Part shown: positions 6,738 to 40,533 of the stretch, piece by piece
Position numbering within the stretch: the stretch's first letter is position 1
Layout: each line of letters opens with the position of its first letter
Assembly: GCA_028868995.1 (NCBI GenBank)
Contig: JAGWTH010000004.1
Span: 62,001 to 126,000, forward strand
Length of the DNA: 64,000 nt
From: Burkholderiales bacterium
GTDB taxonomy: Bacteria; Pseudomonadota; Gammaproteobacteria; Burkholderiales; Burkholderiaceae_C
Direction of reading: 5' to 3'
The notes under the pieces: generated by a model
Told to the model about the DNA's origin: nothing
Seen by the model: only the letters and a program-made list of their open reading frames with translations
Database searches by the model: none
Program-made: the position numbers and the translations under genes

Positions 6738-6756
6738 GGGTGTCTCGAAGGGGGAA

Positions 6757-7632: not shown

Positions 7633-7707
7633 CGCGGCTGCATGCCTTCTTCGTTCAGCGCCGGACCGGATGGGAAGCGGCCGGGCTTCGGTTTACTATT
7701 TTTGGTA

Positions 7708-7723
7708 TTGACCAGGTGTTCAA
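7708..7723. promoter_or_regulatory. Candidate operator palindrome between Mo hydroxylase operon and tetR
   Basis: This is a 16-bp imperfect palindrome of the form TTGAnCAnnTGnTCAA, with 12 of 16 positions symmetric. It lies in the 102-bp spacer between the divergent FAD subunit gene (start 7632) and the TetR-family gene (start 7735). Its position 12 bases upstream of the regulator's start codon and the symmetric arms fit autorepression and control of the divergent operon. No experimental site is known to me for this regulator. Confidence 0.45.
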
Positions 7724-7734
7724 CAATCATAGGA

Positions 7735-8439: not shown

Positions 8440-8489
8440 CGGCCCTCGCCCTCCGTTGCGCGGCCGCCGGCGGCCCCTATACTGGCAGC

Positions 8490-8507
8490 ATGAACGAACT
8501 GGTACAT
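8490..8507. promoter_or_regulatory. Candidate TetR operator overlapping the regulator's start codon
   Basis: This 18-bp imperfect palindrome has arms ATGAACGA and TGGTACAT around a 2-bp centre, with 6 of 8 arm positions paired. The right arm TGGTACAT recurs at 9269-9276 upstream of the TRAP gene. The overlap with the start codon would suit tight autorepression. Confidence 0.4.
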
Positions 8508-9176
8508 AAGAGGCGTCCCGCCGGCCGCTCGGCCAAGCCGCCCGCCAAGGAGACGACCCGCACCAACGACCCCGAACGGACCCGGGCCAACATCCTGGAG
8601 GTGGCGGCCGCGGAGTTCGGCGAGAAGGGCCTGGCCGGCGCGCGCATCGACGAGATCGCGGCGGCGACCCGGACCAGCAAGCGGATGATCTACTACTACT
8701 TCGGCAGCAAGGAGGGCCTGTACCTCGCGGTGCTGGAGGAGTCGTACCGGAAGGTGCGCGACATCGAGGCGGAGCTGCACCTGCAGGACCTCGCGCCCGA
8801 GCAGGCCCTGCGCCGGCTGGTGGCCTTCACCTTCGACCACCACCTGACCCACGAGAACTACATCCGCCTGGTGATGTCCGAGAACATCAACCGCGGCCAG
8901 TACATCGCCCAGTCCCGGCACATCCAGGAGCTGAACGTCCCGGCGATCGCCGCGATCCGCCAGCTCTATCAGCGCGGCGTGAAGGCGGGCGTGTTCCGCC
9001 CGGGGCTGGACCCGGTGGACATCCACGCCTCGATCTCGGCGCTGAGCTTCTTCAACGTCTCCAACCGCCACACCTTCGGCGTGATCTTCAAGCTCGACAC
9101 GCGCTCGCCCGCGTACATCGCGCGCCGGCGGGAGAACGTGATCGAGATGATCGTGCGCTTCATGCGGGCGGACTGA
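8490..9176 (+). CDS. TetR/AcrR family transcriptional regulator (TRAP/hydroaromatic cluster)
   Basis: This 228-residue regulator has its helix-turn-helix at about residues 33-80 (ANILEVAAAEFGEKGLAGAR then TSKRMIYYYFGSKEGLYLAV), followed by a TetR C-terminal domain with many aromatic residues. The first codons lie inside an 18-bp imperfect palindrome. Its right half is repeated exactly upstream of the TRAP transporter gene, which points to autoregulation and control of the downstream cluster. It is transcribed in the same direction as the TRAP, aroQ, aroE-like and quiC-like genes. A product or substrate of that hydroaromatic pathway is the likely effector, by inference from context only. Confidence 0.85.
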   Translation: MNELVHKRRPAGRSAKPPAKETTRTNDPERTRANILEVAAAEFGEKGLAGARIDEIAAATRTSKRMIYYYFGSKEGLYLAVLEESYRKVRDIEAELHLQDLAPEQALRRLVAFTFDHHLTHENYIRLVMSENINRGQYIAQSRHIQELNVPAIAAIRQLYQRGVKAGVFRPGLDPVDIHASISALSFFNVSNRHTFGVIFKLDTRSPAYIARRRENVIEMIVRFMRAD

Positions 9177-9258
9177 GCGGCCACCGAACCCCAGGGTTTT
9201 CCCTGAATCGCGCAGACCAGGGCGGCCCTGGCATTAGGGTCAACCTGGATAGCCACCC

Positions 9259-9276
9259 ACTAACCAGATGGTACAT
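9259..9276. promoter_or_regulatory. Candidate TetR operator upstream of the TRAP transporter
   Basis: This 18-bp element has arms ACTAACCA and TGGTACAT around a 2-bp centre. Five of eight arm positions pair, with a perfect ACCA-nn-TGGT core. It lies in the 152-bp spacer before the DctQM gene, and its right arm equals that of the site at 8490-8507. It is the second predicted site of the same regulator. Confidence 0.4.
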
Positions 9277-9328
9277 TTTGAGCTCCAGCTTGCGGGGGTG
9301 CTCCCCGCATCCAGAACAACCCACCAAG

Positions 9329-24086: not shown

Positions 24087-24917
24087 ATGGACCCGATGAA
24101 CCCCACCCTTTCGATCGGCCCCCTGGCCCTGCCCTGGTCCGTGCTGGTGGTGTTCGCGGCGGTCGCCCTCGGCTGGTGGCTCGGCGAGCGGCTGGGCCGA
24201 CGGCGCGGCCTGGCCATGGAAGCCGCCCTCTACACGATGCTCGCGGGCGGCCTGCTCGGCGCGCGCGCACTGTTCGTGCTGGTGAACCAGGCGGCCTATC
24301 TCGAGGCGCCCTGGTCCATCCTCGACGTGCGCGACGGCGGCTTCAGCCCCGTCGGTGCCCTGCTGGGCCTGGTGACGGCAACCGCCGTGCTGGTCGCGCG
24401 ACAGCGCGTGCTGGCCGCACCCGCCCTCGCCGCGGCCGGCGGCGGTGCAGGGCTCTGGCTCGCGGGAACGCTCGCGCTGTCTGCGCTGGCTCCGCCCCCC
24501 GCCGCGCTGCCGGACCTCACGCTGACGTCCCTGGACGGCCAGCCGGTGCGCCTGGCCGCGCTGGCCGGCAAGCCGGTGGTGCTGAACCTCTGGGCCACCT
24601 GGTGCCCGCCCTGCCGGCGCGAGATGCCCGTGCTGCAGCAGGCCCAGCAGCGGCGGACCGACGTGCAGTTCGTGTTCGCGAACCAGGGCGAGGGGCCGGC
24701 GCAGGTCAGCCGCTTCCTCGCCGCGAGCCGACTGGACCTGCGCAACGTGCTGCTGGATGCGCGAGGTGAAGCCGGCGCTCGGCTGGGGCTGCATGCCCTG
24801 CCCGCCACCCTGCTGTTCGACGCGCGGGGCCGCCTGGTCGCGTCGCACGTCGGGGCGCTCTCGCCGGCCACGCTGGAGGAGCTCCTCGCCAGGCTCGGCC
24901 CGGCCCACCCGTCCTGA
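24087..24917 (+). CDS. TlpA-type disulfide reductase with N-terminal LGT-like membrane domain
   Basis: This 276-residue fusion has two parts. Residues 9-135 carry four or so membrane segments with the layout of prolipoprotein diacylglyceryl transferase (IGPLALPWS, GARALFVLVN, ILDVRDGGFSPVGALLG). Residues 142-272 form a periplasmic thioredoxin-like TlpA domain with Cys173-x-x-Cys176 (WATWCPPCRREMP) and cis-Pro239. The LGT catalytic His in GGxSFHGG is replaced (GGFSPVGA), and the second half of LGT is absent, so no lipid transfer is expected. It probably reduces periplasmic disulfides, with the membrane part as anchor or redox partner. ATG 24096 is an alternative start three codons later. Confidence 0.82.
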   Translation: MDPMNPTLSIGPLALPWSVLVVFAAVALGWWLGERLGRRRGLAMEAALYTMLAGGLLGARALFVLVNQAAYLEAPWSILDVRDGGFSPVGALLGLVTATAVLVARQRVLAAPALAAAGGGAGLWLAGTLALSALAPPPAALPDLTLTSLDGQPVRLAALAGKPVVLNLWATWCPPCRREMPVLQQAQQRRTDVQFVFANQGEGPAQVSRFLAASRLDLRNVLLDARGEAGARLGLHALPATLLFDARGRLVASHVGALSPATLEELLARLGPAHPS

Positions 24918-25339: not shown

Positions 25340-27694
25340 TCACCGGCGCTGCCGCGTGCGGGCACGCACGCGCCGCAGCGCGAGACTCAGGGCGCCGAGC
25401 GCGGCCAGCAGGGGCAGCAAGGGGTCGACCGAGCGCGGACCGCTGGCCAGGGTGCAGCCGCCGCCCCCGCTGCTTTCGGTCGCGGACACCATCGGCGTGG
25501 CCCCCACCGACGGCACCGAGACGTACACGGTGGTGCTGTTGTCGGCCGGTTCGACATCGTCGACGGCGCTGGTGACCGACGCGGTCAGGGTGAATTCGCC
25601 CACGGCCGTCGAGCTCACGGCGAGGTCCGCCGAGGCAGTCGCCCCGGCCACCAGCATCGGCCAGGTGCAGGTGAAGGTCTCGCCGCTGGCCGTGCAGGAG
25701 CCGTCGCCGGACGCGCCCGCCACCGTGAACGCCGGGGGCAGGTTGCCGGTGAGGACGACCTGCGGCGCGTCGCCAGGGCCCTTGTTCGCCACGACGATGC
25801 TCACGGAGTGCTGGCCGCCGGGCAAGGTCGGGCCGACGCGCCCGCTGAGCCCGAGGTCGGGATGGGCCACCGAGGCGAGGGCGAACATCGCGTCCTTGGT
25901 CTGCGCGTCGCCGAGCGTCTGCTCCTCCATCCACAGCGCCATCATGCCCGAACCGTCCGGCGTGGGCCGCAGCTGCGACTCCGACTGCCCGCCCGTCACC
26001 GGGGACACGGGGGTGAAGGCACCGAAGCTGGCGCCGAAATCGATCGAACGGGAAACGTAGATCCGCCCGGAGGGCGCGGCGAGCGAATTGCCCTCGGTAC
26101 CGTAGGCCACGTAGAGCACGTTGGTGTTCTGCGTGTCACCCGGGTCCGGCGTGCCGGTCAGGGGGTTGACGATCGTTCCGGGCGTCGCCACCAGGCGCGG
26201 CTCGACCACCCGCCAGTCGTTCACGGTCACGCCCGACAGGTTCACGGGCTGCGTCCAGCTGCCCGGCGCGCCGCCCGCGAGCGAGCGGACGATGAACAGG
26301 TTGTAGGTGGCCGTCGGCACCGCGGTGTGCGACGGGTCGGAGCCCACCGCGTCCGGGGTGCTGTCGTAGGCCAGCGCGATGGAGTCGCCGCGGATCACGG
26401 CGCGATGCGCATTGGCGTTGCCCCCGGTCGCGACCACTGACGTCAGCATCTGCGGGCTGTCGGCGAGCAGGTCCGAAGGCAGGAAGCCGGTGGAGCCCGG
26501 ACGCGCCACGGTGTCGACCAGGCCGCGCCGGATCATGATGTCGGCCGGCGCGCCGGGCGCGGCGGTCGGCGACTCGCGCCACAGCAGCAGGGCGCGCAGG
26601 GGCGAGCTGCCGGCTGCCGCGGCGCCCTGCAGCACGATGCGCACGCGCCGCGCGCTGTGGGTCACGTCGCTCATCACCGTTCCGGGCGAATTGGTGTCCG
26701 GGGTCGAGTAGGGGAACGAGTGGTAGACGATGCACTTGCCGCCGCTGCCGCCGGCGCAGGAGCTCTCCTCGTAGGCCACCACGGCGGTGGAGCCGCTGAA
26801 GGACAGGTTCGGCCGGGAGGCCCCCGGCTGGCCCGTGCCCGTCGTGTTGTTGTCGCTCAGCTGCACGATGTTGGCACGCAGCGTGGTGCCGACGGGGGAG
26901 CTGGCGTAGGTGTACCAGATGTTGGTGCCGCCGCTGACGTTCGCCCCGCTGCCGCCGTCGCCGGGGCCTTCGGCCTCGCCCGGCTGCAGGCCCAAGGGAT
27001 CCTCCTGCCACACGATGCCGAGGCCCGCACCGGTGGCATTGCCCGCCACGGCCTCGTTGATCACGTCGCGGGTGCCGTCGGTGAGCTGCGCGACGTTCCA
27101 GGTCGCGAGCGCGGGGTCGGTGGTCGAGGCGACCCACAGGCAGTGATAGGGCCGGTCGGGGATGCCATCCTGGTTGAAGTCGCCCGTGCCCTGCACCGTG
27201 CTGGTGTAGGAGCCGGTCGCCCCCACTGCGGGATTCTGCGGGCAATAGGCGCTGTTCCAGGAGATCGTCACCTTGGGCCCCGAGGTCGTCGGCGGCGCGA
27301 AGATGATGGGCATGTCGTTGTCCGCCACGAAGGTGCCGGCAGGGGTCGTGATGTTCTGCCCGCCGGTGGGCGCTCCCCCCAGGTCACGCGACAGCAGGAT
27401 GGGCGCCTGCCAGCTCGCGCCTTCGTTGAAGGACACGCGGGCGTAGATGTTCTGGCTGCCGGCCACGCCGTCCAGGTAGGTGTACACCCAGGCCTTGCGG
27501 AACGTGCCGCTGTCTGCATAGGCCAGGCGCACCACCTTGGCCTTCTCCGTGGCCGTGGGCGTCTGGCTGACGTTCACCGGCGAGGCCAGCGTGAGCGCCG
27601 CGCCCCAGGCCGAAGCCAGCGGAAGCGCCAGCCCCAGCAGGCCCGCGCAAACTGCTCGCACCGCGCCCTGGCGCGTCTTGGTTCTTCCGTTCAT
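25340..27694 (-). CDS. JDVT-CTERM sorted surface protein (choice-of-anchor O type)
   Basis: This 784-residue exported protein has a Sec signal peptide (about 1-32, ending SAWGAA). A large body with repeated sialidase/beta-propeller-like strands follows (SFNEGASW, SIDFGASF, RLVATPG). A DUF11-like beta-sandwich (about 605-735, SVSIVVANKGPGDAPQVVLT) leads to a C-terminal sorting tail. The tail has GGGGC (743-747) and TLASG, then a hydrophobic helix (PLLPLLAALGALSLAL) and an Arg-rich end. This is the JDVT-CTERM tripartite pattern. The signal is thought to be cleaved by the glutamic protease MrtJ, encoded divergently 63 bases away. A strong GGAGGAAGG site precedes ATG 27694. The role is unknown; it is probably surface-anchored or released. 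Confidence 0.8.
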   Translation of the reverse strand: MNGRTKTRQGAVRAVCAGLLGLALPLASAWGAALTLASPVNVSQTPTATEKAKVVRLAYADSGTFRKAWVYTYLDGVAGSQNIYARVSFNEGASWQAPILLSRDLGGAPTGGQNITTPAGTFVADNDMPIIFAPPTTSGPKVTISWNSAYCPQNPAVGATGSYTSTVQGTGDFNQDGIPDRPYHCLWVASTTDPALATWNVAQLTDGTRDVINEAVAGNATGAGLGIVWQEDPLGLQPGEAEGPGDGGSGANVSGGTNIWYTYASSPVGTTLRANIVQLSDNNTTGTGQPGASRPNLSFSGSTAVVAYEESSCAGGSGGKCIVYHSFPYSTPDTNSPGTVMSDVTHSARRVRIVLQGAAAAGSSPLRALLLWRESPTAAPGAPADIMIRRGLVDTVARPGSTGFLPSDLLADSPQMLTSVVATGGNANAHRAVIRGDSIALAYDSTPDAVGSDPSHTAVPTATYNLFIVRSLAGGAPGSWTQPVNLSGVTVNDWRVVEPRLVATPGTIVNPLTGTPDPGDTQNTNVLYVAYGTEGNSLAAPSGRIYVSRSIDFGASFGAFTPVSPVTGGQSESQLRPTPDGSGMMALWMEEQTLGDAQTKDAMFALASVAHPDLGLSGRVGPTLPGGQHSVSIVVANKGPGDAPQVVLTGNLPPAFTVAGASGDGSCTASGETFTCTWPMLVAGATASADLAVSSTAVGEFTLTASVTSAVDDVEPADNSTTVYVSVPSVGATPMVSATESSGGGGCTLASGPRSVDPLLPLLAALGALSLALRRVRARTRQRR

Positions 27695-27757
27695 TTTGCT
27701 TCCTTCCTCCGAAAATCTCCGGCGCGCCAACCGGGCCAGCCGTGCGACGATGCGGGC

Positions 27758-28273
27758 ATGAAGTCGACGCCCCTTCGTCGCGGCCTCGCGCGCATCACCG
27801 ACCAGTGGGGTCTCGCCCTGCCGCCGGATCGCGGCTGGCGGGGCTTCATCGATACGCACCTGGCGCTGGCCGCCGCGGCCGCGCTCCCGGTCCTGTGGGT
27901 GCTCTCCACGGTCTTCGGTCCCGCCATGCACGCTCCGGCCGGTTGGCCGGCCTGGGCCTCCTTCGTGCTCGCGCAGCCGGTGCTGGAGGAACTGGTCTTT
28001 CGCGGCATCTTGCAGGGTGAGTTGCTGCAGTGGACCGGCGGGCGCCAGGCCGGCCCGGTCACGCAGGCCAACCTCTGGACTTCCCTGGCTTTCACGGTGG
28101 CCCACTTGCTGGTCCAGCCTCCCGCCTGGGCTCTGGCCGTCGCCGTCCCTTCGCTCGTGTTCGGGCACCTGCGCGATCGCCTGCGCAGCATCTGGCCGGC
28201 GGTGGTTCTTCATGGTGGGTACAACCTGGGATTCGCGCTTGTCGCGACATGGGTGCGCTCCAGTTCGGGATGA
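27758..28273 (+). CDS. mrtJ: JDVT-CTERM system glutamic-type intramembrane protease (CPBP family)
   Basis: This 171-residue CAAX-protease/bacteriocin-processing (CPBP) family membrane protein contains all three family motifs: Glu77-Glu78-x3-Arg82 (LEELVFRGIL), His116 (FTVAHLL) and His152-x3-Asn156 (LHGGYN). It has about four transmembrane helices. Short CPBP proteins next to a single JDVT-CTERM substrate are the defining arrangement of the MrtJ system, so it should cut or process the tail of the divergent 784-residue protein. ATG 27758 was chosen: the only nearer ATG (27750) is out of frame and closes at once. The gene ends before a bidirectional terminator. Confidence 0.82.
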   Translation: MKSTPLRRGLARITDQWGLALPPDRGWRGFIDTHLALAAAAALPVLWVLSTVFGPAMHAPAGWPAWASFVLAQPVLEELVFRGILQGELLQWTGGRQAGPVTQANLWTSLAFTVAHLLVQPPAWALAVAVPSLVFGHLRDRLRSIWPAVVLHGGYNLGFALVATWVRSSSG

Positions 28274-28336: not shown

Positions 28337-29962
28337 TCAGTTCACCGTGATGATGACCGACGAACTCAGGCCGTCGGGCGAGAGCGTCGCGCCGGCGTCG
28401 GCCTTGTTGACCATCAGCACGTGGTTCGGCACGGTCACGCCGTTGACGACGACGTTCGGGTCGAGGCTGAACGTGATGCGGTACTGGCCGGTCTTGGAAG
28501 CCACGCCGCTCACGTTGGACACGCGGAAGTTCATGCCGTAGACCAGCGAGCCGCCCTGGTTGATCTCGGAGCTGAACGGGCTGACCGCGACGGAGCCGCC
28601 GGAGCCGCCCGAAGAACCGCCGCCTTCCGTGCTGGTGCCGAAGTTCTGCGCCACCGCGTGGTCGTAGACCACCGCGTCCACGGAGCCGTCGGTGTTCAGC
28701 TTCTCGATCTTCAGGTGCGCGTTGATGGCGAACACATTGCGAGTGCTGCTGTCGTAGGTCTGGCCGCTGGTGCCCTGCAGCTCGTTGATGCCCGTGCCGG
28801 AGATCAGCGCCATGGTGTAGCCCTTCATGGTGTCGGTCACGCCGGTCGTGGCGTCCTGCTTCAGCACGGTCTCGATGCGCACCAGCGAGCTGCTGGTGTA
28901 GGTCTTGCTCAGGAGCGAGTCACCCCAGTCGACCACCACGTTCTCCGTGGCGCCGGTCGTGTTGCTGCGCCATTCGGCCTGCCAGGTGCTGGCGGTCGCC
29001 TGCGGATAGTAGGTCGTGCCGCCGATCGACACCGCCGTCGACGGGTCGTAGTACGGCAGGCTGGGCGGCGTTTCCGTCGTGAGCGGACGCAGGCCCGTGC
29101 TGTAGTCGATCGCGGGCATGGGGGTGAACGGGCCCACTCCAGGCCAGGTGCCGATGATCGGCAGGCCGGTCGTGCCGTAGCCGTCGGCGTACACCAGCGG
29201 GAAGGACAGGTTGGAGCCGTAGGCCGATTCACCGCCACCGCCACCGGCGCCGCCACCGCCACCGCCACCCGCGCGGGCCGTGGTCACCGCGATCTCGCCG
29301 GAGGGCGCGCTCTCGTTGCCCGACGCGGGATCGACAGCCGTCACCACGTAGTAGTAGGTGGTTTTGCTGGAAACGGCGGTATCCAGGTAGGGCGCGGTGA
29401 CGTTCGCGAACTTCACGGCGCGCGTCGCATCCTGGAAGTAGGTGGCCAGACCGGCCTGGGTGCCGCGATACAGGTTGTACTGCACCGCCGTCGGGTAGGT
29501 CACGTCGAACCACTGGACGGTGATCGCGGGCGTATCACGCGCGGCGATCGCCGTGAGGCCGGCCGGGGAAGGCGGCACCGTCGCCGAGCCGGGGCTGGGA
29601 ATGTTCGGGGTCGCGCCCACCTCGCCGGACAGGGCACTTTCTCCCGCGGAGTTCACCGCGGTGACGGCGTAGTAATAGATCTTGCCGTTCGTGAGCCCTG
29701 TGTGCACGAAAGGTGCCACGGCGCCCGTGACCTTGTTCGAACTGGTCGTCACCGGTGAGGTGTCGGACCAGTACAGGTTGTAGGAGGTCGCGCCCGGAAC
29801 CGCATCCCAGGCCACGGTGACCTGGCTGTCGGCGGCGACCGCGGAAAGCTGAATCGGCGTCGCGGGGGGCTGGAGACCTCCGCTGCTGCCGCCTCCGCAG
29901 GCGGACAACATGGCTGCGACGACCCATCCGGCCAGCAGCAAGAACCACTTCCTGATTGTCAT
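28337..29962 (-). CDS. Fibronectin type III domain lipoprotein
   Basis: This 541-residue predicted lipoprotein has a signal with lipobox LSAC (Cys22), followed by GGGSSGG. Two fibronectin type III domains follow, at about 35-120 (VAWDAVPGATSYNLYWSD, YYYAVTAVNSAGES) and 130-228 (VQWFDVTYPTAVQYNLYRG, YYYVVTAVDPASGNES). An almost pure Gly linker at about 233-246 precedes a C-terminal region of about 295 residues that I do not recognise. That region ends in a repeat-like beta domain with a second Ser/Gly-rich spacer. A consensus AGGAGG site lies before the ATG. It is probably anchored in the outer membrane and extracellular or periplasmic. No enzymatic motif was seen; adhesion or a structural role is possible. 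Confidence 0.75.
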   Translation of the reverse strand: MTIRKWFLLLAGWVVAAMLSACGGGSSGGLQPPATPIQLSAVAADSQVTVAWDAVPGATSYNLYWSDTSPVTTSSNKVTGAVAPFVHTGLTNGKIYYYAVTAVNSAGESALSGEVGATPNIPSPGSATVPPSPAGLTAIAARDTPAITVQWFDVTYPTAVQYNLYRGTQAGLATYFQDATRAVKFANVTAPYLDTAVSSKTTYYYVVTAVDPASGNESAPSGEIAVTTARAGGGGGGGAGGGGGESAYGSNLSFPLVYADGYGTTGLPIIGTWPGVGPFTPMPAIDYSTGLRPLTTETPPSLPYYDPSTAVSIGGTTYYPQATASTWQAEWRSNTTGATENVVVDWGDSLLSKTYTSSSLVRIETVLKQDATTGVTDTMKGYTMALISGTGINELQGTSGQTYDSSTRNVFAINAHLKIEKLNTDGSVDAVVYDHAVAQNFGTSTEGGGSSGGSGGSVAVSPFSSEINQGGSLVYGMNFRVSNVSGVASKTGQYRITFSLDPNVVVNGVTVPNHVLMVNKADAGATLSPDGLSSSVIITVN

Positions 29963-30324: not shown

Positions 30325-30894
30325 ATGAAAACAACCGCCTCGCCGACTCCGGCGCCTGTCTCCGTCTGGACGCGTCGCGCATGGCTGGGTGGAGCGGCGA
30401 CGCTCCTGGCCGCCCCGTGGGAAGCCAGCCGCGCCCAGTCGGCGGCGGCGGCCGAGGAGGAAGCCCACGCCCCCGGGCTGCCCGCGCTGGGCAGCAGGCT
30501 GGTGGTGCCGCCGGTGAAGTTGCTCGATGGCAGCTCGTTCGATCCGGCGCAGGCCGAGGGCAAGGCGCTGCTCATCTATTGGTGGGCCAGCTTCTGCCCC
30601 TTCTGCGCACTGCAGAGCCCTGCCATGGAGGCCTTGTGGCGGGCCCAACGCGACAAAGGCCTGGTCATGCTGGCCTTGTCGATTGACACCAGGCCGCAGG
30701 ACGCGACCGCCTACCTCCACAAGAAGGGCTACACCTTCCCCGCGGCCTGGACTTCCCCGGCGTGGCGCCGCGCCTTTCCCAAACCCAAGGGCCTGCCTGT
30801 CACGCTGGTGCGCGGGCGCGACGGCCGGGTGGCGCTGGCTGAAGCAGGACAGATGTTCGACGAGGACGTGGCCGCGATCTCCCGCTTGGTCTGA
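30325..30894 (+). CDS. TlpA-family thiol-disulfide oxidoreductase, Tat-exported
   Basis: This 189-residue periplasmic thioredoxin-like protein has a twin-arginine signal (WTRRAWLGGAATLLAA, about 15-30). The thioredoxin fold starts near residue 58, with the active site Cys91-Pro-Phe-Cys94 (WWASFCPFCALQSP). The cis-Pro loop is KGLPVTLVRGRDGRV. The CPFC dipeptide differs from the CPPC of the LGT/TlpA fusion at 24087-24917, so the redox properties should differ. ATG 30325 was chosen because it begins the Tat signal; ATG 30268 lies inside a possible -10 box. No dedicated partner is adjacent. Confidence 0.8.
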   Translation: MKTTASPTPAPVSVWTRRAWLGGAATLLAAPWEASRAQSAAAAEEEAHAPGLPALGSRLVVPPVKLLDGSSFDPAQAEGKALLIYWWASFCPFCALQSPAMEALWRAQRDKGLVMLALSIDTRPQDATAYLHKKGYTFPAAWTSPAWRRAFPKPKGLPVTLVRGRDGRVALAEAGQMFDEDVAAISRLV

Positions 30895-31553: not shown

Positions 31554-31952
31554 TTATTCAGCGGCGCCCTGCTCCGTGCCGGCTTCGCTCGGCTCGGGGC
31601 GGTCCACCAGTTCGACCAGCGCCATGGGCGCGTTGTCGCCGACGCGGAAGCCCATCTTCAGGATGCGGGTGTAGCCGCCGGGACGGGTCTTGTAGCGCGG
31701 GCCCAGTTCGTTGAACAGCTTGGCCACCATGTCGCGATCGCGCAGGCGGTCGAAGGCCAGGCGCTTGTTCGCCAGGGTGGGTTCCTTGCCCAGGGTGATC
31801 ATCGGCTCGACGACGCGACGCAGTTCCTTCGCCTTCGGCACGGTGGTCTTGATGGCCTCGTGCTGGATCAGCGAATTCATCATGTTGCGCAGCATCGCGA
31901 GGCGGTGCTCGCTGGTGCGGTTGAGTTTACGGAGGCCGTGGCCGTGACGCAT
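31554..31952 (-). CDS. rplQ: 50S ribosomal protein L17
   Basis: This 132-residue large-subunit protein begins [20 protein letters not shown], the L17 signature, and contains [17 protein letters not shown]. It is the last protein gene of the alpha operon, 71 bases after rpoA. The C-terminus ends in an acidic, low-complexity tail ([13 protein letters not shown]) longer than in E. coli, as is common in Burkholderiales. Confidence 0.97.
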
Positions 31953-32023
31953 GGTGCTTTCCTTTCCTTAGCTTGAACGGGGAGCCGTGTGAGGTACTCC
32001 CCGGTGCACGTGCGGTTGATCGA

Positions 32024-33013
32024 TTAACGCTTGTCCAGGCCGGCGGGCGGCCAGGACTCGAGCTTCATGCCCAGCGTGAGACCGCGGGAAGCCAGGACTT
32101 CCTTGATCTCGTTGAGCGACTTGCGACCCAGGTTCGGGGTCTTCAGCAGCTCGTTCTCGGTGCGCTGGATCAGGTCACCGATGTAGTAGATGTTCTCCGC
32201 CTTCAGGCAGTTGGCGGAACGCACAGTCAGTTCGAGCTCGTCGACCGGGCGCAGCAGGATCGGGTCGAACTGCTGCGAGCTGCGCTGCGCCGGGGCCTCG
32301 AAGGCCGCCAGCTCGCTGCCTTCCAGCTGGGCGAACACCGCCAGCTGTTCCACCAGGATCTTGGCGGAGGCGCGCACGGCGTCCTCGGCGGTGATGGCGC
32401 CGTTGGTCTCGATCTCCATCACCAGCTTGTCCAGGTCGGTGCGCTGCTCGACGCGGGCGCTCTCCACCGTGTAGCTCACGCGCTTGACCGGCGAGAACGA
32501 GGCGTCCAGCACGATGCGGCCGATGGACTTGGTGGGCTCGTCGCCGTAGCGGCGCACGTTGCCCGGCACGTAGCCGCGGCCCTTCTCGACCTTGATCTGC
32601 ATGTCGATCTTGCCGCCCTGGGAGAGCGTCGCGATCACGTGGTCGGGATTGATGATCTCGACGTCATGCGGGGTCTGGATGTCGGCGGCCGTGACGACGC
32701 CCTCGCCGTCCTTGCGCAGCGACAGGGTCACCTCGTCGCGGTTGTGGAGCTTGAACACCACGCCCTTGAGGTTCAGCAGGATGCCGACCACGTCTTCCTG
32801 CACGCCGTCGATCGACGAGTACTCGTGCAGCACGCCGGCGATGGTCACCTCGGTCGCCGCGTAACCCACCATCGACGAGAGCAGGACCCGGCGCAGCGCG
32901 TTGCCCAGCGTGTGGCCGTAGCCACGCTCGAACGGCTCCAGGGTCACCTTGGCGCGGTTGGTGCCAAGCTGTTCCACGTTGATGGACTTGGGTTTCAGCA
33001 GGTTGGTTTGCAT
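32024..33013 (-). CDS. rpoA: DNA-directed RNA polymerase subunit alpha
   Basis: This 329-residue subunit has the same length as E. coli alpha. The N-terminal assembly domain contains [19 protein letters not shown] (about 31-49), the dimerisation core. The C-terminal domain includes [20 protein letters not shown] and [19 protein letters not shown], the DNA UP-element and activator contact surface. It is encoded between rpsD and rplQ as in other proteobacterial alpha operons. Confidence 0.98.
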
Positions 33014-33155
33014 TCAGGACTTCCTCTCAATACCCCCGGCTCGTTACACCGGTAAGGCTGGTGAAGTGCCCGGATCCGATGCCTCGAACACGGGTACGAA
33101 AACTTCTCGGGGACGAGGCGCCTCGGGCAGCCTCGCCCTCACCTCGCACCCGCGC

Positions 33156-33779
33156 TTAGCGCGAGTACAGTTCGACGATCAGCGCTTCCTTGATGTCGGC
33201 GCCGAATTCGTCGCGGTCGGGCACCTTCTTGAACGTGCCTTCCGCCTTGTCGGCGTTGACTTCCACCCAGGCCGGGAGGCCGACCTGCTGGGCCAGCTGC
33301 AGCGCCTCGACGACGCGGTTCTGCTTCTTCGACTTGTCGCGCACCGCCACCACGTCGCCCGGCTTGACCAGGTAGGACGGGATGTTGAGGACCTGGCCGT
33401 TCACCGTGATCGCCTTGTGCGACACCAGCTGGCGGGCTTCCGCGCGCGTGGAGCCGAAGCCCATGCGGTACACCACGTTGTCCAGGCGGGACTCCAGCAG
33501 GAACAGCAGGTTGGCGCCGGTGTTGCCCTTGCGGCGGTCGGCTTCCTCGAAGTAGCGGCGGAACTGGCGCTCGAGCACGCCGTACATGCGCTTGACCTTC
33601 TGCTTCTCGCGCAGCTGCAGGCCGAAGTCGCTGGTGCGCTGGCCGGAGGTACGGCCGTGCTGGCCGGGCTTGGAGTCGAACTTGGCCTTGTCGCTGATGG
33701 AGCGGCGGGCGCTCTTCAGGAACAGGTCGGTGCCTTCGCGGCGGGAGAGTTTGGCCTTGGGGCCGAGGTAACGTGCCAC
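33156..33779 (-). CDS. rpsD: 30S ribosomal protein S4
   Basis: This 207-residue primary 16S rRNA-binding protein begins [20 protein letters not shown], lacks the N-terminal zinc Cys set, and has the S4 RNA-binding domain ([20 protein letters not shown]). In E. coli S4 is the translational repressor of its operon. The spacer in front of this gene (33780-33909) holds three consecutive hairpins, which could take part in such control. Confidence 0.97.
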
Positions 33780-33803
33780 TTTTCTCTTTCCTTCAAAAAA
33801 CTA

Positions 33804-33901
33804 CCGCGGCCTGCTGCCGCGGGAGCCGGCAGCGCATGCACTGCCGGCGGTGGGCTTGGTCATGAGACCCTCTAGGCCACGGCTTGCGTGAGCAAGCCGT
33901 G
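33804..33901 (-). promoter_or_regulatory. Three consecutive hairpins in the rpsK-rpsD spacer
   Basis: Three perfect inverted repeats follow each other in the 130-bp spacer. They are 33804-33810 with 33816-33822 (7 bp), 33825-33832 with 33841-33848 (8 bp), and 33878-33887 with 33892-33901 (10 bp, 4-nt loop). None has a U-tract on the minus strand, so they are not classical terminators. An mRNA control element (for example S4 autoregulation) or an RNA-processing site is possible. Confidence 0.45.
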
Positions 33902-33909
33902 TCTTCACC

Positions 33910-34314
33910 TTAAATCCTACGACGCTTCTGGGGACGGCAGCCGTTGTGCGGCACCGGCGTGACGTCCGAGATCGAGTTGATCCGGATGCCCAGCGCGGCC
34001 AGCGCACGGACCGACGACTCGCGGCCCGGGCCGGGACCGCGGATCTCGACGTCCAGGGTCTTGATGCCCTGCTCCATGGCAGCGCGGCCGGCCACTTCCG
34101 ACGCCACCTGGGCGGCGAAGGGGGTCGACTTGCGCGAGCCCTTGAAGCCCTGGCCGCCGGAGGAGGCCCAGGACAGCGCATTGCCCTGGCGGTCGGTGAT
34201 CGTGATGATCGTGTTGTTGAAGGAGGCGTGCACGTGGGCGACGCCGTCGTTCACGTTCTTGCGGACCTTCTTGCGCACGCGCTGGGCGGCGTTGCTGGCG
34301 GGAGCTTTTGCCAT
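33910..34314 (-). CDS. rpsK: 30S ribosomal protein S11
   Basis: This 134-residue small-subunit platform protein contains [22 protein letters not shown] and the [14 protein letters not shown] region ([17 protein letters not shown]). The C-terminus is [17 protein letters not shown], nearly invariant in the family. It is placed between rpsM and rpsD in the standard alpha-operon order. Confidence 0.97.
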
Positions 34315-34338
34315 GTCTTGACTCTCTTCCTTGATGTG

Positions 34339-34380
34339 AGGGGTCCGAGCAGCGCGCTACGCGCTCCGGGTCCGACCCCT
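34339..34380 (-). other. Hairpin in the rpsM-rpsK spacer
   Basis: An outer 7-bp stem (34339-34345 with 34374-34380) encloses an inner 6-bp stem (34351-34356 with 34360-34365). It fills most of the 71-bp gap between rpsM and rpsK. There is no U-tract. It is probably an mRNA structure of the operon; its role is unknown. Confidence 0.4.
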
Positions 34381-34385
34381 GGCAC

Positions 34386-34751
34386 TTATTTCTTCAGGGC
34401 GGCGGCGGCCTTGCGCGGGCCCTTGCGGGTGCGCGCGTTGGTGCGGGTGCGCTGGCCGCGCATCGGCAGGCCGCGGCGGTGGCGGAAGCCCCGGTAGCAC
34501 CCGATGTCCATCAGGCGCTTGATGTTCATCGTGGTCTCGCGGCGCAGGTCGCCTTCGATCGTGAACTGGGCGATCTGGTCGCGGATCTTCTCCAGGTCGG
34601 CGTCGGTCAGGTCCTTCACCTTCTTGGAGTAGGGAATGCCCGTCGCTTCGCAGATCTGGCGGGCGCGCGTGCGGCCGATGCCGTAGATCGCGGTCAGGCC
34701 GATCTCGGCGTGTTGATGCGGCGGGATGTTGATGCCAGCAATACGTGCCAT
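34386..34751 (-). CDS. rpsM: 30S ribosomal protein S13
   Basis: This 121-residue head protein of the small subunit begins [20 protein letters not shown] and ends with the basic tail [19 protein letters not shown] that contacts tRNA in the P site. It is the first gene of the alpha segment, just downstream of rpmJ. Confidence 0.97.
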
Positions 34752-34772
34752 GTCTTTACCTCTGAAGTCCTA

Positions 34773-34886
34773 TCAGCCCTGGCGCTGCTTGTGGCGCGGG
34801 TCGGTGCAGATCACGCGCACGACGCCCTTGCGGCGGATGATCTTGCAGTTGCGGCAGATCTTCTTGACGGAAGCCGAAACTCTCAT
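34773..34886 (-). CDS. rpmJ: 50S ribosomal protein L36 (zinc-binding type)
   Basis: This 37-residue protein begins [20 protein letters not shown] and ends RHKQRQG. The zinc ligands Cys11, Cys14, Cys27 and His32 are all present, so this is the zinc-containing form. The gene lies between infA and rpsM, as expected for the spc-alpha junction. Confidence 0.95.
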
Positions 34887-34914
34887 TTGCTTTCTCCTAA
34901 TCTCTCTGCGGCGC

Positions 34915-35133
34915 CTACTTGGCCCGAAACACGATCCGTGCCCGCGACAAGTCGTAGGGCGTCAATTCCACGGTGACCTTGTCACCCGGCAGGATGCGGA
35001 TGTAGTGCATCCGCATCTTTCCCGAAATATGTCCGAGCACCACGTGCCCATTCTCCAGCTTGACCCGGAAGGTCGCGTTGGGAAGGTTTTCCACGACCTC
35101 CCCTTGCATCTGGATGACATCGTCCTTCGACAC
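34915..35133 (-). CDS. infA: Translation initiation factor IF-1
   Basis: This 72-residue OB-fold factor binds the 30S A site during initiation. The start is a GTG at 35131-35133, two bases after the secY stop; the product begins [20 protein letters not shown] and contains [18 protein letters not shown]. The placement between secY and rpmJ is the usual one in Burkholderiales. Confidence 0.95.
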
Positions 35134-35135
35134 GA

Positions 35136-36452
35136 TCAGCCACCGAGCGAAGTCTTGAAGTTGGCTTTCTTCAGCAGCGATTCGTATTGCTGGCTCATCA
35201 GGTAGTTCTGCACCTGGGCCATGAAGTCCATGGTCACCACCACGATGATCAGCAGGGAGGTCCCGCCGAAGTAGAACGGCACGCTGTACTTCAGGATCAG
35301 GAACTCCGGCAGCAGGCAGACGAAGGTGATGTAGATCGCGCCGGCCAGCGTCAGGCGGGCCAGGATCTTGTCGATGTACTTCGCCGTCTGCTCGCCCGGG
35401 CGGATGCCCGGCACGAAGGCGCCGCTCTTCTTCAGGTTGTCCGCGGTCTCCCGGCTGTTGAACACCAGGGCCGTGTAGAAGAAGCAGAAGAAGACGATCG
35501 CGCTGGCGTACAGGATGACATAGATCGGCTGGCCCGGGCTGAGCGTGGCCGCAATGTCCTTCAGCCAGCGCATGGAATCGCCCGTGGAGAACCAGCTGAC
35601 CACCGTGGCGGGCAGCAGGATGATCGACGAGGCGAAGATCGGCGGGATCACGCCGGCCATGTTCAGCTTCAGCGGCAGGTGCGAGGACTGGCCTCCGTAG
35701 ACCTTGTTGCCCACCTGGCGGCGCGCGTAGTTGACCAGGATCTTGCGCTGGCCCCGCTCCACGAACACCACGAAGTAGGTCACCAGCATCACGACCGCCA
35801 CCACGATGATCGCCGTCAGCGGGTTCATCGCGCCGGTGCGCACGAGCTCCAGCAGGCCGCCGATGGCGTTCGGCAGGCCCGCGGCGATGCCCGCGAAGAT
35901 GATGATCGAGATGCCGTTGCCCAGGCCGCGCTCGGTGATCTGCTCGCCCAGCCACATCAGGAACATGGTGCCGGCCGTCAGGCTCACCACCGCGTTGACG
36001 CGGAAGGCGAACCCGGGGTTCAGCACCAGGCCGGCGGAGCCCTCCAGCGCCATGGCGATACCCAGGGACTGGAACAGCGCCAGGGCCACCGTGCCGTAGC
36101 GGGTGTACTGGGTGATCTTGCGCCGGCCGGCCTCGCCCTCCTTCTTCAGCTGCTCCATCGACGGCATCACGTAGGTGAGCAGCTGCATGATGATGGAGGC
36201 CGAGATGTAGGGCATGATGCCCAGGGCGAACACCGTGAAGCGCGACAGCGCCCCGCCCGAGAACATGTTGAACAGGCTCAGGATGCCGCCCTGCTGGCCC
36301 TTGAACAGCTGCGCGAGCTGGTCGGGGTTGATGCCGGGCACGGGGATGTGCGCGCCGATGCGGTAGACGATCAGCGCGAGCAGCAGGAACACCAGCCGGC
36401 GACGCAGGTCGCCGAACTTGCCGGTCTTCGCGATCTGGGCTGCGGATGCCAA
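35136..36452 (-). CDS. secY: Preprotein translocase subunit SecY
   Basis: This 438-residue central channel subunit of the Sec translocon has ten transmembrane helices. It contains the conserved N-terminal [12 protein letters not shown]-like segment ([20 protein letters not shown]), the plug region [20 protein letters not shown] and the C5 loop [16 protein letters not shown]. The gene is coupled to infA (two-base gap) and follows rplO. Confidence 0.97.
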
Positions 36453-36465
36453 GTGCTTGCGCCTC

Positions 36466-36897
36466 TTAGTTCAGGGAGCCGCCGGCGGCCTCGATGGCAG
36501 CCTTCGCGCCCGCCGTCGCGCCGATGCCGGTCAGCTTGACCGCGCGCTTCAGCTCGCCGGACTTGATGACCTTCACGTTCTTCACGATCTGGGGCACCAG
36601 TTTGGCGGCCTTCAGCGCCAGCAGGTCGACTTCGGCCGCGCCCAGCTTCTCCAGCTGCGCCAGCGTCACTTCGCCGTTGAACTGCAGGTTGGCGGACTTG
36701 AAGCCGCGCTTGGGCAGGCGGCGCTGCAGCGGCATCTGGCCGCCTTCGAAACCGACCTTGTGGTAGCCGCCCGCGCGGGACTTCTGGCCCTTGTGGCCGC
36801 GACCCGCGGTCTTGCCCAGGCCGGAACCGATGCCGCGGCCGACCCGGCGGCGCGCCTTCTTCGAGCCCTCGGCGGGCTGGATGGTGTTCAGTTCCAT
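36466..36897 (-). CDS. rplO: 50S ribosomal protein L15
   Basis: This 143-residue large-subunit protein begins [20 protein letters not shown] and carries the Gly-rich [20 protein letters not shown] segment that threads into 23S rRNA. The C-terminal globular domain contains [20 protein letters not shown]. It lies one base from rpmD. Confidence 0.97.
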
Positions 36898-36898
36898 G

Positions 36899-37087
36899 TC
36901 AGAGCACCTTCACCAGGTAGTCGATCTTGTTGATCATCCCGCGCACGGCCGGCGTGTCTTCCAGCTCGCTCACGGAATTGAGCTTGCGCAGGCCCAGGCC
37001 GCGCACGGTATCGCGGTGGGACTGCTTGGTGCCGATGGGGCTGCGCACCAGCTGCACCTTCACCGTCTTCTTCTGTTCGGTAGCCAT
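36899..37087 (-). CDS. rpmD: 50S ribosomal protein L30
   Basis: This 62-residue protein contains [20 protein letters not shown] and [20 protein letters not shown], the L30 fold signature. It is the short bacterial form. It is located between rpsE and rplO in the spc order. Confidence 0.96.
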
Positions 37088-37097
37088 TGCGTTTCCT

Positions 37098-37619
37098 TTA
37101 GGCGGCGAAGATGTCTTCGACCGACTTGCCGCGCTTGGCCGCCACTTCCGAGGGGGTCGTGGCGTTCTTCAGGGCGTCGAACGTGGCGCGGACCATGTTG
37201 TAGGGGTTCGTCGAACCGTGGCTCTTGGCCACGATGTCGGTGATGCCCATCACCTCGAACACGGCGCGCATCGGGCCGCCGGCGATGATGCCGGTACCCT
37301 TGGGGGCCGGCGCCATCATGACGCGGGCCGCACCGTGCTGGCCGAACACGTTGTGGTGAATGGTGCCGTTCTTCAGGGACACCTTGGTCATGTTGCGGCG
37401 GGCTTCTTCCATCGCCTTCTGCACGGCCAGGGGCACTTCCTTGGACTTGCCCTTGCCCATGCCGACGCGGCCGTCGCCGTCGCCGACCACGGTCAGCGCG
37501 GCGAAGCCGAGGATGCGGCCGCCCTTCACCACCTTGGTCACGCGGTTCACCGCGATCATCTTCTCGCGCAGGCCGTCTTCCGGACCGTCACCCTGCGTCT
37601 TCGCTTGGATCTTTGCCAT
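37098..37619 (-). CDS. rpsE: 30S ribosomal protein S5
   Basis: This 173-residue decoding-fidelity protein contains [20 protein letters not shown] (double-stranded RNA-binding-like domain) and [20 protein letters not shown]. The C-terminal domain has [16 protein letters not shown]. It is placed after rplR. Confidence 0.97.
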
Positions 37620-37637
37620 GTTGCTTATCCGTGTCCG

Positions 37638-38003
37638 TTAGAACTGCAGGCCCGCCTCACGGGCGGCGTCGGCCAGCGCCTTGACGCGGCCGTGGTAGGC
37701 GAAGCCGGCACGGTCGAAGGCGACCTTGTCGACACCGGCGGCCTTGGCCTTCTCGGCGATGCGCTTGCCCACCGAAGCGGCGGCAGCCACCGTGGCGCCC
37801 TTGCCGGCGCCACCGAGCTCCTTGCGCACGTCGGCCTCGGCGGTGGAGGCGGAGGCCAGCACCTTGGAGCCGTCGTCGGAGATCAGCTGGGCGTAGATAT
37901 GCAGGTTGGTGCGGTTGACCGTCAGGCGGGCCACACCTTGCTGCGCAATGCGGATGCGGGTCTGGCGCGCACGGCGCAGACGCTGCTCTTTCTTGTTCAA
38001 CAT
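37638..38003 (-). CDS. rplR: 50S ribosomal protein L18
   Basis: This 121-residue 5S rRNA-binding protein contains [19 protein letters not shown] and [20 protein letters not shown] at the end. There are two adjacent ATG codons; the second (38003) gives the usual family start (MLNKKEQ) and better spacing from the AAGGAG site, while 38006 would add one Met. Confidence 0.96.
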
Positions 38004-38014
38004 CATGCGGCTCC

Positions 38015-38548
38015 TTACTTCTTCTTGGTCTCTTTGATGACGACCTTCTCGTCCGCGTAGCGGATGCCCTTGCCCTTGTAGGGCTCGGGCGGGCGGACCG
38101 CGCGGATTTCCGCGGCGATCTGGCCCACGCGCTGGCGGTCCGCGCCCTTGACGATGATTTCCGTCGGGGCGGGGGTCGCGACCGTGATGCCCTGGGGCAT
38201 CTCGATGTTGACCGGGTGCGAGAAACCGATGGCGAGGTTCAGCTTGTTGCCCTGGGCGGCGGCGCGGAAGCCCACGCCGACGAGGGTCAGCTTCTTCTCG
38301 AAGCCGTTGGTGACGCCCTGCACCATGTTGTTCACCAGCTGGCGCATGGTGCCGGACATGGCGTTGGCTTCACGCGATTCGTCCACGGGGGTGAACGTCA
38401 GCTTGCCACCCTCGTTGTTGACCTTCACCAGGGCGTTCTGCGCGAGCGACAGGTTGCCGCCCTTGCCCTTGACGCTGATCTGGTCTTCCTTGATGGCCAC
38501 GTCGACGCCCTGGGGGACGGCGACCGGCGACTTTCCGACTCGGGACAT
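38015..38548 (-). CDS. rplF: 50S ribosomal protein L6
   Basis: This 177-residue protein of the factor-binding region has two similar domains. It begins [20 protein letters not shown] and ends with the signature [20 protein letters not shown]. The order rpsH-rplF-rplR is standard. Confidence 0.97.
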
Positions 38549-38563
38549 GTTCCTATCCTTCCC

Positions 38564-38959
38564 TTAAGCGACGTAGCACAGGACTTCGCCGCCCACGCCG
38601 GTGGCGCGCGCCTTGCGGTCGGTCATCACGCCCTTGGGGGTGGTGACGATCGCCACGCCCAGGCCGTTCATGACCTGGGGAATGTCGTTGCGGCCCTTGT
38701 AGACGCGCAGGCCGGGACGGCTCACGCGCTCGATGCGCTCGATCACGGGACGGCCGGCGTAGTACTTGAGGGCGATCTGGAGCTCGCTCTTGTTGCCCTC
38801 GGTCTTCACCTGGAAACCGTCGATGTAACCCTCGTCCTTCAGCACCTGGGCGATGGCCACCTTCACCTTGGAAGAGGGCACCGTCACCGTCGCCTTGGAG
38901 ACCATCTGCGCGTTGCGGATGCGCGTCAGCAGGTCGGAGATGGGATCACTCATGCTCAT
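38564..38959 (-). CDS. rpsH: 30S ribosomal protein S8
   Basis: This 131-residue central-domain 16S rRNA-binding protein begins [20 protein letters not shown] and contains the C-terminal signature with [15 protein letters not shown]-like sequence ([20 protein letters not shown]). In E. coli S8 represses the spc operon at the rplX-rplE junction; no matching structure was tested here. Confidence 0.97.
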
Positions 38960-38980
38960 ATCTGTCTCTCCTGCCCGGGC

Positions 38981-39286
38981 TTACCAGCTGGCCTTGATCA
39001 CGCCGGGGATGTCGCCGGTGAAGGCCATCTCGCGGATCTTGTGGCGCGCGATGCCGAACTGGCGGAACGTGCCGCGGGCACGGCCGGTCAGTTCGCAGCG
39101 GTTGCGCTGGCGGGTCGGGTTGGCGTTGCGCGGGAGCTTCTGCAGCGCCAGGCGGGCCGCCATGCGCTCGTCGTCGCTCTTCTTCGCGTCGTTCGCGACG
39201 GCCTTCAGTTCCTCGTACTTCTTCGCGTACTGGGCGACCAGCTTGTCACGCTTGAGTTCGCGCTGGATCAAAGCAGTTTTAGCCAC
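38981..39286 (-). CDS. rpsN: 30S ribosomal protein S14
   Basis: This 101-residue long-form S14 lacks the CxxC zinc pairs. It contains [20 protein letters not shown] and ends GVIKASW, typical of the zinc-independent proteobacterial protein. It lies between rplE and rpsH. Confidence 0.97.
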
Positions 39287-39295
39287 GGTGCAACC

Positions 39296-39835
39296 TCAGT
39301 TCTTGAACGGGAAACGGAAGCCCGCGAGCAGCGCCTTGCACTCCTCGTCGGTCTTGGCCGTCGTGGTGATGGAGATGTTCAGGCCGCGCAGGGCGTCGAC
39401 CTTGTCGTACTCGATCTCCGGGAAGATGATCTGTTCCTTGACACCGATGTTGTAGTTGCCGCGGCCGTCGAAGGCACGGGCCGACACGCCGCGGAAGTCG
39501 CGCACGCGGGGCAGGGCAACCGTCACGAAACGGTCCAGGAATTCGTACATGCGCTGGCCGCGCAGGGTGACCATGCAGCCGATGGCCTGGCCTTCGCGGA
39601 TCTTGAAGCCGGCGATGGCCTTCTTGGCCTTGGTCACGACGGGCTTCTGGCCGGCGATCTTGGTCAGGTCGCCGACGGCGTTCTCCATGACCTTCTTGTC
39701 CGCCACAGCCTCGCTCACGCCCATGTTCAGCGTGATCTTGGTGATGCGCGGCACCTGCATCGGCGACTTGTAGCCGAACTTCTCGGTCAGCTGCGCGACG
39801 ACCTTCTCGCGGTAGTGTTGTTGCAGTCGGGACAT
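39296..39835 (-). CDS. rplE: 50S ribosomal protein L5
   Basis: This 179-residue 5S rRNA-binding protein contains [20 protein letters not shown], the [18 protein letters not shown] loop, and [20 protein letters not shown]. It is full length, and the gene starts two bases after the rplX stop codon. Confidence 0.97.
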
Positions 39836-39837
39836 GG

Positions 39838-40155
39838 TCAGGCCACCTTGATTTGTTCGCCGGACGACTTGAACACGCGGGTGCGCTTGTCGCCGTCGAC
39901 CTTGATGCCCACGCGGTCAGCCTTGCCGGTGGCGGGGTTGAAGATCGCCACGTTGGACTGGTGGATCGGCATGGCCTTCTCCACGATGCCGCCGGTGGTC
40001 CCCTTCATGGGGTTGGGCTTGGTGTGCTTCTTCACCAGGTTGATGCCCTCGATGACCAGGTACTGGTCGTCCTTGCGCAGCGTCACGCGACCGCGCTTGC
40101 CCTTGTCCTTGCCGGCCAGGACGATGACTTCGTCACCCTTGCGGATCTTGTTCAT
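39838..40155 (-). CDS. rplX: 50S ribosomal protein L24
   Basis: This 105-residue assembly-initiator protein begins [20 protein letters not shown] (KOW motif). It contains [20 protein letters not shown], the family signature. It is located between rplN and rplE. Confidence 0.96.
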
Positions 40156-40164
40156 GGCGGTTCC

Positions 40165-40533
40165 TTACAGGACTTCCGGGGCCAGCGACACGATCTTCAT
40201 GAACTTCTCGGTGCGCAGCTCGCGCGTGACCGGGCCGAAGATGCGGGTGCCGATGGGCTCCAGCTTGTTGTTGAGCAGCACGGCGGCATTGCCGTCGAAC
40301 TTGATGAGGGAGCCGTCGCCGCGGCGAATGCCCTTGGCGGTGCGGACCACCACTGCGCTGTAGACCTCGCCCTTCTTGACGCGGCCACGCGGAGCGGCTT
40401 CCTTGATGCTCACCTTGATGATGTCGCCGACGCTCGCGTAGCGACGCTTGGAGCCCCCCAGCACCTTGATGCAAAGGACGGACTTCGCGCCGGTGTTGTC
40501 GGCGACTTCGAGCCGGGATTCAGTCTGGATCAT
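40165..40533 (-). CDS. rplN: 50S ribosomal protein L14
   Basis: This 122-residue intersubunit-bridge protein begins [20 protein letters not shown] and ends [19 protein letters not shown] 40533 gives the universal start; an in-frame ATG five codons upstream (40548) is unlikely. It is the first gene of this ribosomal block. The S10-operon genes (rpsQ, rpmC, rplP) that usually precede it are not here; a strong promoter and then glpD lie upstream. Confidence 0.97.

Follow-up and report, generated by a model that had tools for sequence, protein, structure and literature searches.

A JDVT-CTERM surface protein and its divergent MrtJ protease in a Burkholderiales genome, with a possible link to type II secretion

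A 64,000-nucleotide stretch of a Burkholderiales genome (contig JAGWTH010000004.1, positions 62,001 to 126,000; hereafter the window) carries two divergent genes, one encoding a 784-residue protein that ends in a JDVT-CTERM sorting signal and the other a 171-residue intramembrane protease, MrtJ. We find that both products exceed the cut-offs of their NCBIfam models, with 34.6 bits versus 27 for JDVT-CTERM (NF033191) and 110.4 bits versus 75 for the MrtJ equivalog model (NF033192), and their membership of the JDVT-CTERM/MrtJ family is practically beyond doubt. The pair is a further member of a kind already published; the two-gene neighbourhood is in print, reported with reference to earlier in silico work (PMC11980579, available part). 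The new element of the analysis is the linkage of mrtJ and JDVT genes to gsp genes of type II secretion in relatives of the source genome. The placement of mrtJ in the gsp clusters of relatives suggests a possible route by which tagged proteins get to the cell surface. We tentatively propose that MrtJ serves the type II pathway by maturing its clients, giving C-terminally lipid-anchored proteins that GspN-bearing systems display on the surface, and that the window pair is a detached single-client module. If this is true, the pair would be a minimal system for finding the lipid and the transferase. The matter bears on the lipidation of Cys-bearing C-terminal tags and on the role of MrtJ proteases.

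The pair and its source genome

The ATGs of the two genes are separated by 63 bases (Table 1). The body of the target protein matches choice-of-anchor O (NF040591, 270.6 bits versus a cut-off of 125) and contains DUF11 (Pfam, 51.7 bits versus 24.6). The JDVT-CTERM match falls at the extreme C-terminus, residues 742-777 of 784, where the sequence GGGGC(747)TLASGPRSVDPLLPLLAALGALSLALRRVRARTRQRR combines the three parts of such a signal, a Cys signature, a hydrophobic helix and an Arg cluster; hydrophobicity peaks at residues 755-773 (19-residue Kyte-Doolittle mean 1.74). The Cys is invariant across 23 aligned tails, which were chosen partly for that Cys. The mature protein has seven Cys, namely the sequence-close pairs 151/185, 313/321 and 667/676, which may form disulphides, and the lone Cys747. 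A structure model of the target, built from only three sequences, is unusable (mean pLDDT 37), leaving unconfirmed the beta-propeller that an earlier note on this DNA, made from the sequence alone, had ascribed to the protein. BLAST with the target body brings up two more relatives, in L112 and L121, that likewise end in such a tail, and the four genomes with choice-of-anchor O among 399 of the order all have MrtJ and a tail as well.

The protease matches the Rce1-like family PF02517 (67 bits versus 22.4) and scores below the curated cut-off of the myxosortase core model NF040914 (Mrt_core, 69.1 bits versus 100), as well as below those of the MrtX, MrtC and MrtP models. Its six catalytic residues, E77 E78 xxx R82, H116 and H152 xxx N156, do not vary among 17 aligned sequences of MrtJ or near-MrtJ type, nor among the 24 of a second set. 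The AlphaFold2 model (pLDDT 90.6) shows a core of some five helices preceded by short N-terminal ones; compared with the PDB, it gives no Foldseek match at E <= 0.001, and a sequence search gives none at E <= 1. Translation, tail analysis and alignments bear out what the earlier note had described, a GGGGC tail with hydrophobic helix and Arg cluster on one side and, 63 bases away, a divergent CPBP protease with EExxxR, a His and HxxxN on the other. It was correct in observation and right about the family, which the NCBIfam scan upholds, and it somewhat overstated the novelty. None of the three outcomes that it had named as refuting the pairing occurred.

The source genome (G000 in our survey; 3.76 Mb, 81 contigs, 99.67% complete) holds a single place that matches the JDVT model, every one of its 69 candidates having been scored. 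Built from 23 tails with the source tail among them, the profile A3 recovers that place at E 3.8e-13 and has no second match in this genome below E 0.34; the search for further tails that the earlier note had called for thus yielded none. The raw GGGGC DNA pattern matches 17 times in this genome versus 52 times for the reversed control pattern. MrtJ is the one protein over the cut-off of the Rce1-like Pfam model, and choice-of-anchor O is found in one open frame. Given that there is one tail and one CPBP protein over cut-off, enzyme and substrate stand one to one. Having a single tag, its protease as the sole CPBP gene over cut-off and a type II cluster that includes gspN, the source genome is a near-minimal test bed.

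MrtJ and JDVT-CTERM tails across genomes

We surveyed 399 genomes of the order Burkholderiales, in which at most 18 JDVT candidates were scored per genome, so that some targets were possibly missed, and 268 genomes of the class. In the order, MrtJ exceeds its cut-off in 16 genomes, JDVT-CTERM in at least 16 and both in at least 15; the counts of 15 with both, one with MrtJ only and one with JDVT only correspond to a Fisher p of 4e-25, kinship ignored. One genome (G013) has MrtJ over cut-off and no tail detected by model or tail profile, and in another (G040) a tail over cut-off directly adjoins a MrtJ-like protein that at 57 bits is below cut-off. Tails below cut-off occur in six further order genomes; in G145 and G291 the tail is adjoined by a MrtJ-like protein that is likewise below its cut-off, at 74.5 and 49.3 bits respectively, and the other four are without MrtJ over cut-off. 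The tail profile, which includes the tails of positive genomes and was applied to at most 146 candidates per genome, finds tails in 15 of the 16 MrtJ-positive versus none of 36 chosen MrtJ-negative genomes.

Two or more targets over cut-off are present in at least 8 of the 15 order genomes with both families (at least five in G015, at least four in each of G245 and G025, and at least two in each of G027, G032, G076, G099 and G117), and some of these targets are distant from mrtJ or on other contigs. A target is seen less than 1 kb from mrtJ in six of the 15 (G000, G245, G099, G015, G365 and G386), and contig breaks may hide more. The arrangement of one protease serving one neighbouring target, as the earlier note had it, therefore holds in the source genome and does not hold in general. 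Like the published MrtJ/JDVT pair (NF033192, NF033191), the source pair has both models over cut-off, adjoining genes and a single target, and it shows no difference from that pair. Related genomes depart from the published pair in two respects, in that a single mrtJ goes with several targets at dispersed sites and that mrtJ sits in a gsp cluster; the part of PMC11980579 available to us mentions neither.

Among 19 targets scanned with Pfam, five are subtilases, and one each is galactose-oxidase-like, glucose/sorbosone-dehydrogenase-like and Agd3-deacetylase-like; several have Ig-like or Calx-beta repeats, and three are without a Pfam match. Judged by these domains, the subtilase and oxidase/dehydrogenase-like targets would fit exported enzymes. 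In two genera the JDVT tail is internal to a longer frame (L097 4268-6910 in G386; L093 about 7584-10361 in G245) and is followed by a second signal-like segment, judged by eye, and a thioredoxin domain, identified by Pfam on the L097 frame only. In G365 a thioredoxin-like protein is a separate gene.

A further comparison is offered by rhombosortase, an unrelated serine protease, and its tag GlyGly-CTERM, which is not known to carry a Cys signature. The two systems are alike in their tripartite tail, in the adjacent dedicated pairs of most single-target genomes and in their co-occurrence with type II secretion, for which no tie of rhombosortase to a particular type II subclass was found (PMC3237569, available part). 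Adjacency of the pair is the rule in rhombosortase genomes with one target and very rare in those with several (same source), whereas MrtJ/JDVT adjacency is mixed across both.

In the class survey MrtJ exceeds its cut-off in 40 of the 268 genomes, the source genome being one. Within 39 fetched stretches, a tail is found in 16 (E up to 0.05), less than 1 kb from mrtJ in nine, and no tail is found within the stretch in 23. MrtJ has been assigned to beta- and gammaproteobacteria (PMC11980579, available part); we also see it over cut-off in Nitrospira/Nitrospirae metagenome-assembled genomes (L114, L115, L126 and L129).

The neighbours of mrtJ were clustered from open frames less than 7 kb from the matches at 59 MrtJ or MrtJ-like loci, comprising the 39 class loci and 20 order matches (four below cut-off), with the window's locus left out. 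Among the 45 largest groups, those that recur are targets (groups of 7, 5 and smaller), an OmpA-type barrel (9 genomes), gsp genes (at most 5 genomes) and antisense frames and, by eye, FAD/NAD-oxidoreductase-like (5 genomes) and shikimate-dehydrogenase-like (4) proteins. Beyond these, no accessory gene conserved beside mrtJ in general was recognised among the 45 groups. Nine of the 39 class loci have the OmpA-type outer-membrane beta-barrel gene near mrtJ (Pfam on one of the nine), and directly upstream of the barrel gene are a JDVT gene in five, a contig end in two and another gene in two. At L254, L242, L241, L249 and L231 the gene order is JDVT, OmpA-type beta-barrel, mrtJ. In TraA/TraB of Myxococcus, too, the protein with the tag has a barrel/OmpA partner (PMC11980579, available part); the class loci add a protease of their own.

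Linkage to type II secretion and the proposed course of maturation

For the linkage analysis, gsp genes were identified by BLAST against proteins from these loci, which had first been named by motif and gene order; TIGR02517 gave an independent call of gspD, and Pfam supported the gsp names in the source genome's cluster. We find gspD over cut-off in all 16 MrtJ-positive genomes of the order versus 201 of the 399 overall (hypergeometric p 1.3e-5, kinship ignored). In five of the 16, mrtJ lies between gspF and gspG (G013, G225, G252, G027 and G015), and in G015 a tail-bearing subtilase sits between gspF and mrtJ. G025 has one target in the gspF-gspG interval and a second one past gspN, and a target adjoins gspC in G032 and G076. 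Taken together, 8 of the 16 have mrtJ or a target within or beside a gsp cluster, across five families, by a class defined after the data had been inspected. As a control, none of 63 listed below-cut-off CPBP matches from 46 order genomes lies less than 20 kb from gspD, the nearest being at 41 kb; one of 50 listed weaker CPBP loci has a gsp-like frame (a weak GspG match), many of the 50 being from phyla unchecked for type II genes. We found no mention of mrtJ or JDVT genes inside gsp clusters in the literature searched, which excludes the source paper on MrtJ. The mrtJ-gsp linkage in related genomes yields a specific, testable prediction on export.

The source genome has a type II system as judged by its secretin (gspD, 609 bits), and its gsp cluster on contig C75 encodes T2SSG, I, K, L, N, secretin and E domains (Pfam), gspN matching PF01203 at 92.6 bits. 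Of the 16 MrtJ genomes, 11 show gspN within the fetched stretches. In the source cluster a group II intron reverse transcriptase lies just upstream of gspG (L184, G000:C75:4000-23900).

What course might the target then take? Our proposal draws on the sister system MrtX (PMC11980579) and on findings with GspN (PMC12802150). The choice-of-anchor O protein would leave by Sec, as a signal peptide recognised by eye suggests, and would halt in the inner membrane at its C-terminal helix, the Arg cluster lying on the inner side. The lone Cys747 would be lipidated, most likely by the housekeeping Lgt, in keeping with the hypothesis published for the sister tag MYXO-CTERM. MrtJ would then cut just after the Cys and remove the helix, as family, co-occurrence and intact active-site residues suggest; such a cut is in print for MrtX/MYXO-CTERM only. 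Finally, the processed target would be exported by a GspN-assisted type II system and anchored at the cell surface. That MrtJ cleaves the tail is very likely; lipidation of the Cys and type II export of the target are each probable, and we lean, with some reserve, towards the whole course from Sec through Cys747 lipidation and MrtJ cleavage to surface export.

In Myxococcus xanthus, MrtX cleaves the MYXO-CTERM tail Cys-dependently and suffices for cleavage in E. coli; lipidation before cleavage was proposed there with Lgt as leading candidate, lipid and transferase being unproven (PMC11980579, available part). This system (TraA) is alike in its Cys-bearing tripartite tail, its CPBP core with EExxxR and HxxxN and its type II link. 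It differs in that MrtX has seven helices, versus the five or so core and short N-terminal helices modelled for MrtJ, and serves 35 targets in M. xanthus (same source), versus one in the source genome. Lipoproteins such as pullulanase and InvL, made by Lgt/LspA and exported by type II systems with GspN, are alike as lipid-anchored type II clients, which the JDVT protein is proposed to be; their lipid is on an N-terminal Cys, whereas our proposal puts it at the C-terminal end. In A. baumannii and K. pneumoniae, type II lipoproteins need GspN to reach the surface (PMC12802150, available part).

Several findings weigh against a type II maturation role for MrtJ. No gsp gene was found in the fetched stretches around the 39 class MrtJ loci outside the order, which rejects a universal gsp linkage of mrtJ; some linkage may be missed here because many stretches end at contig ends (the shortest is 3.1 kb). 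A wider MrtJ listing holds at least 23 loci with strong matches, of which two were already in the order survey and L122 in the class survey; gsp linkage is seen in 2 of the 21 listed loci outside the order survey and so appears lineage-restricted. These are L112, a Rhodoferax metagenome-assembled genome with three JDVT proteins and gspG-H-I-J, and L133, a Zetaproteobacterium with mrtJ (about 6300-6760, 95.7 bits) between gspF and gspG, a recurrence of the position seen in the order that speaks for the link. In the source genome the pair is on contig C44, without gene linkage to gspD on C75, around which the fetched stretch showed no gspF. Five of the 16 MrtJ genomes did not show gspN, the stretches having ended early or held few gsp genes, and in G013 mrtJ is inside the gsp cluster yet no tail is detected. 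No acyltransferase was recognised beside mrtJ among the 45 largest neighbour groups, most of them without tool annotation, and we know of no lipid or transferase proven for JDVT-CTERM. Nor was any MrtJ biochemistry found in the literature searched. The earlier note's statement that the outcome is not described is outdated, because the neighbourhood and a lipidation-then-cleavage hypothesis are in print (PMC11980579, available part).

Part of this evidence would suit a processed protein that surfaces independently of type II, by another lipoprotein route or by a partner outer-membrane beta-barrel. The absence of gsp linkage outside the order and the separate contigs in the source genome point that way, as do the barrel genes by mrtJ with a JDVT gene directly upstream in five of nine. 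We nevertheless regard such a route as unlikely, for gspD is present in every order genome with MrtJ, half of these have gsp gene linkage, and there is no barrel among five scanned neighbouring genes of the window. It is just as improbable that MrtJ cuts an unlipidated tail, the Cys serving for recognition only, and thereby releases the protein by shedding or secretion. The lack of a recognised transferase gene beside mrtJ would agree with release, and so would the cutting of a target by MrtX in E. coli without cognate partner, although the authors, who do not exclude unmodified cleavage, think it unlikely; the invariance of the Cys, in tails partly selected by it, argues against release, as does the finding that loss of MrtX leaves the surface localization of its targets defective, if not absolutely so (PMC11980579, available part). 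Very improbable indeed is a third activity, in which MrtJ is no endopeptidase on a lipidated Cys and transpeptidates the cleaved C-terminus onto a membrane amine, as proposed for rhombosortase. Glutamic proteases of the Rce1 kind are generally held to be hydrolases without an acyl-enzyme, and the invariant Cys would be left unexplained. The point in favour of transpeptidation is functional analogy with rhombosortase only (PMC11980579, available part).

Features of the pair and adjoining genes of the window

Table 1. Coordinates of the target gene, its tail and mrtJ in the window
Feature	Position	Strand	Basis
Choice-of-anchor O / DUF11 surface protein with JDVT-CTERM tail, 784 aa	25340..27694, stop included	-	translation, NCBIfam, Pfam
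Probable Sec signal peptide, residues 1 to about 30	27605..27694	-	sequence and cleavage site judged by eye
JDVT-CTERM sorting signal, residues 742-777: GGGGC, hydrophobic helix, Arg cluster	25364..25471	-	NF033191; tail profile
Cys747 codon, invariant Cys of the signature	25454..25456	-	translation, tail alignment
Divergent intergenic stretch, 63 bases	27695..27757	.	gene limits
mrtJ, CPBP/Rce1-like glutamic intramembrane protease, 171 aa	27758..28273, stop included	+	translation, NF033192, PF02517, AlphaFold2 model

The target gene converges with a plus-strand gene (24087-24914) whose product joins an LGT-like N-terminal half to a thioredoxin/Redoxin domain. As a cognate acyltransferase it is rejected; the PF01790 match (45.4 bits) covers only profile positions 4-107 of 240, the second Lgt half is lacking, and the His of the HGGLIGG-type motif is absent by eye. 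Full-length relatives of its product (E < 1e-39) occur in 6 of the 16 MrtJ-positive versus 11 of the 36 MrtJ-negative genomes (Fisher p 0.75), and because they are similarly spread with or without MrtJ the gene appears unconnected to it. On the other side, the pair is adjoined by a gene for an Fn3 protein with a lipoprotein-like start, judged by eye (28340-29959, minus strand). A second Redoxin protein (30325-30891, plus strand) and a ribosomal protein/rpoA/secY operon, named by eye (31557-40533, minus strand), lie nearby.

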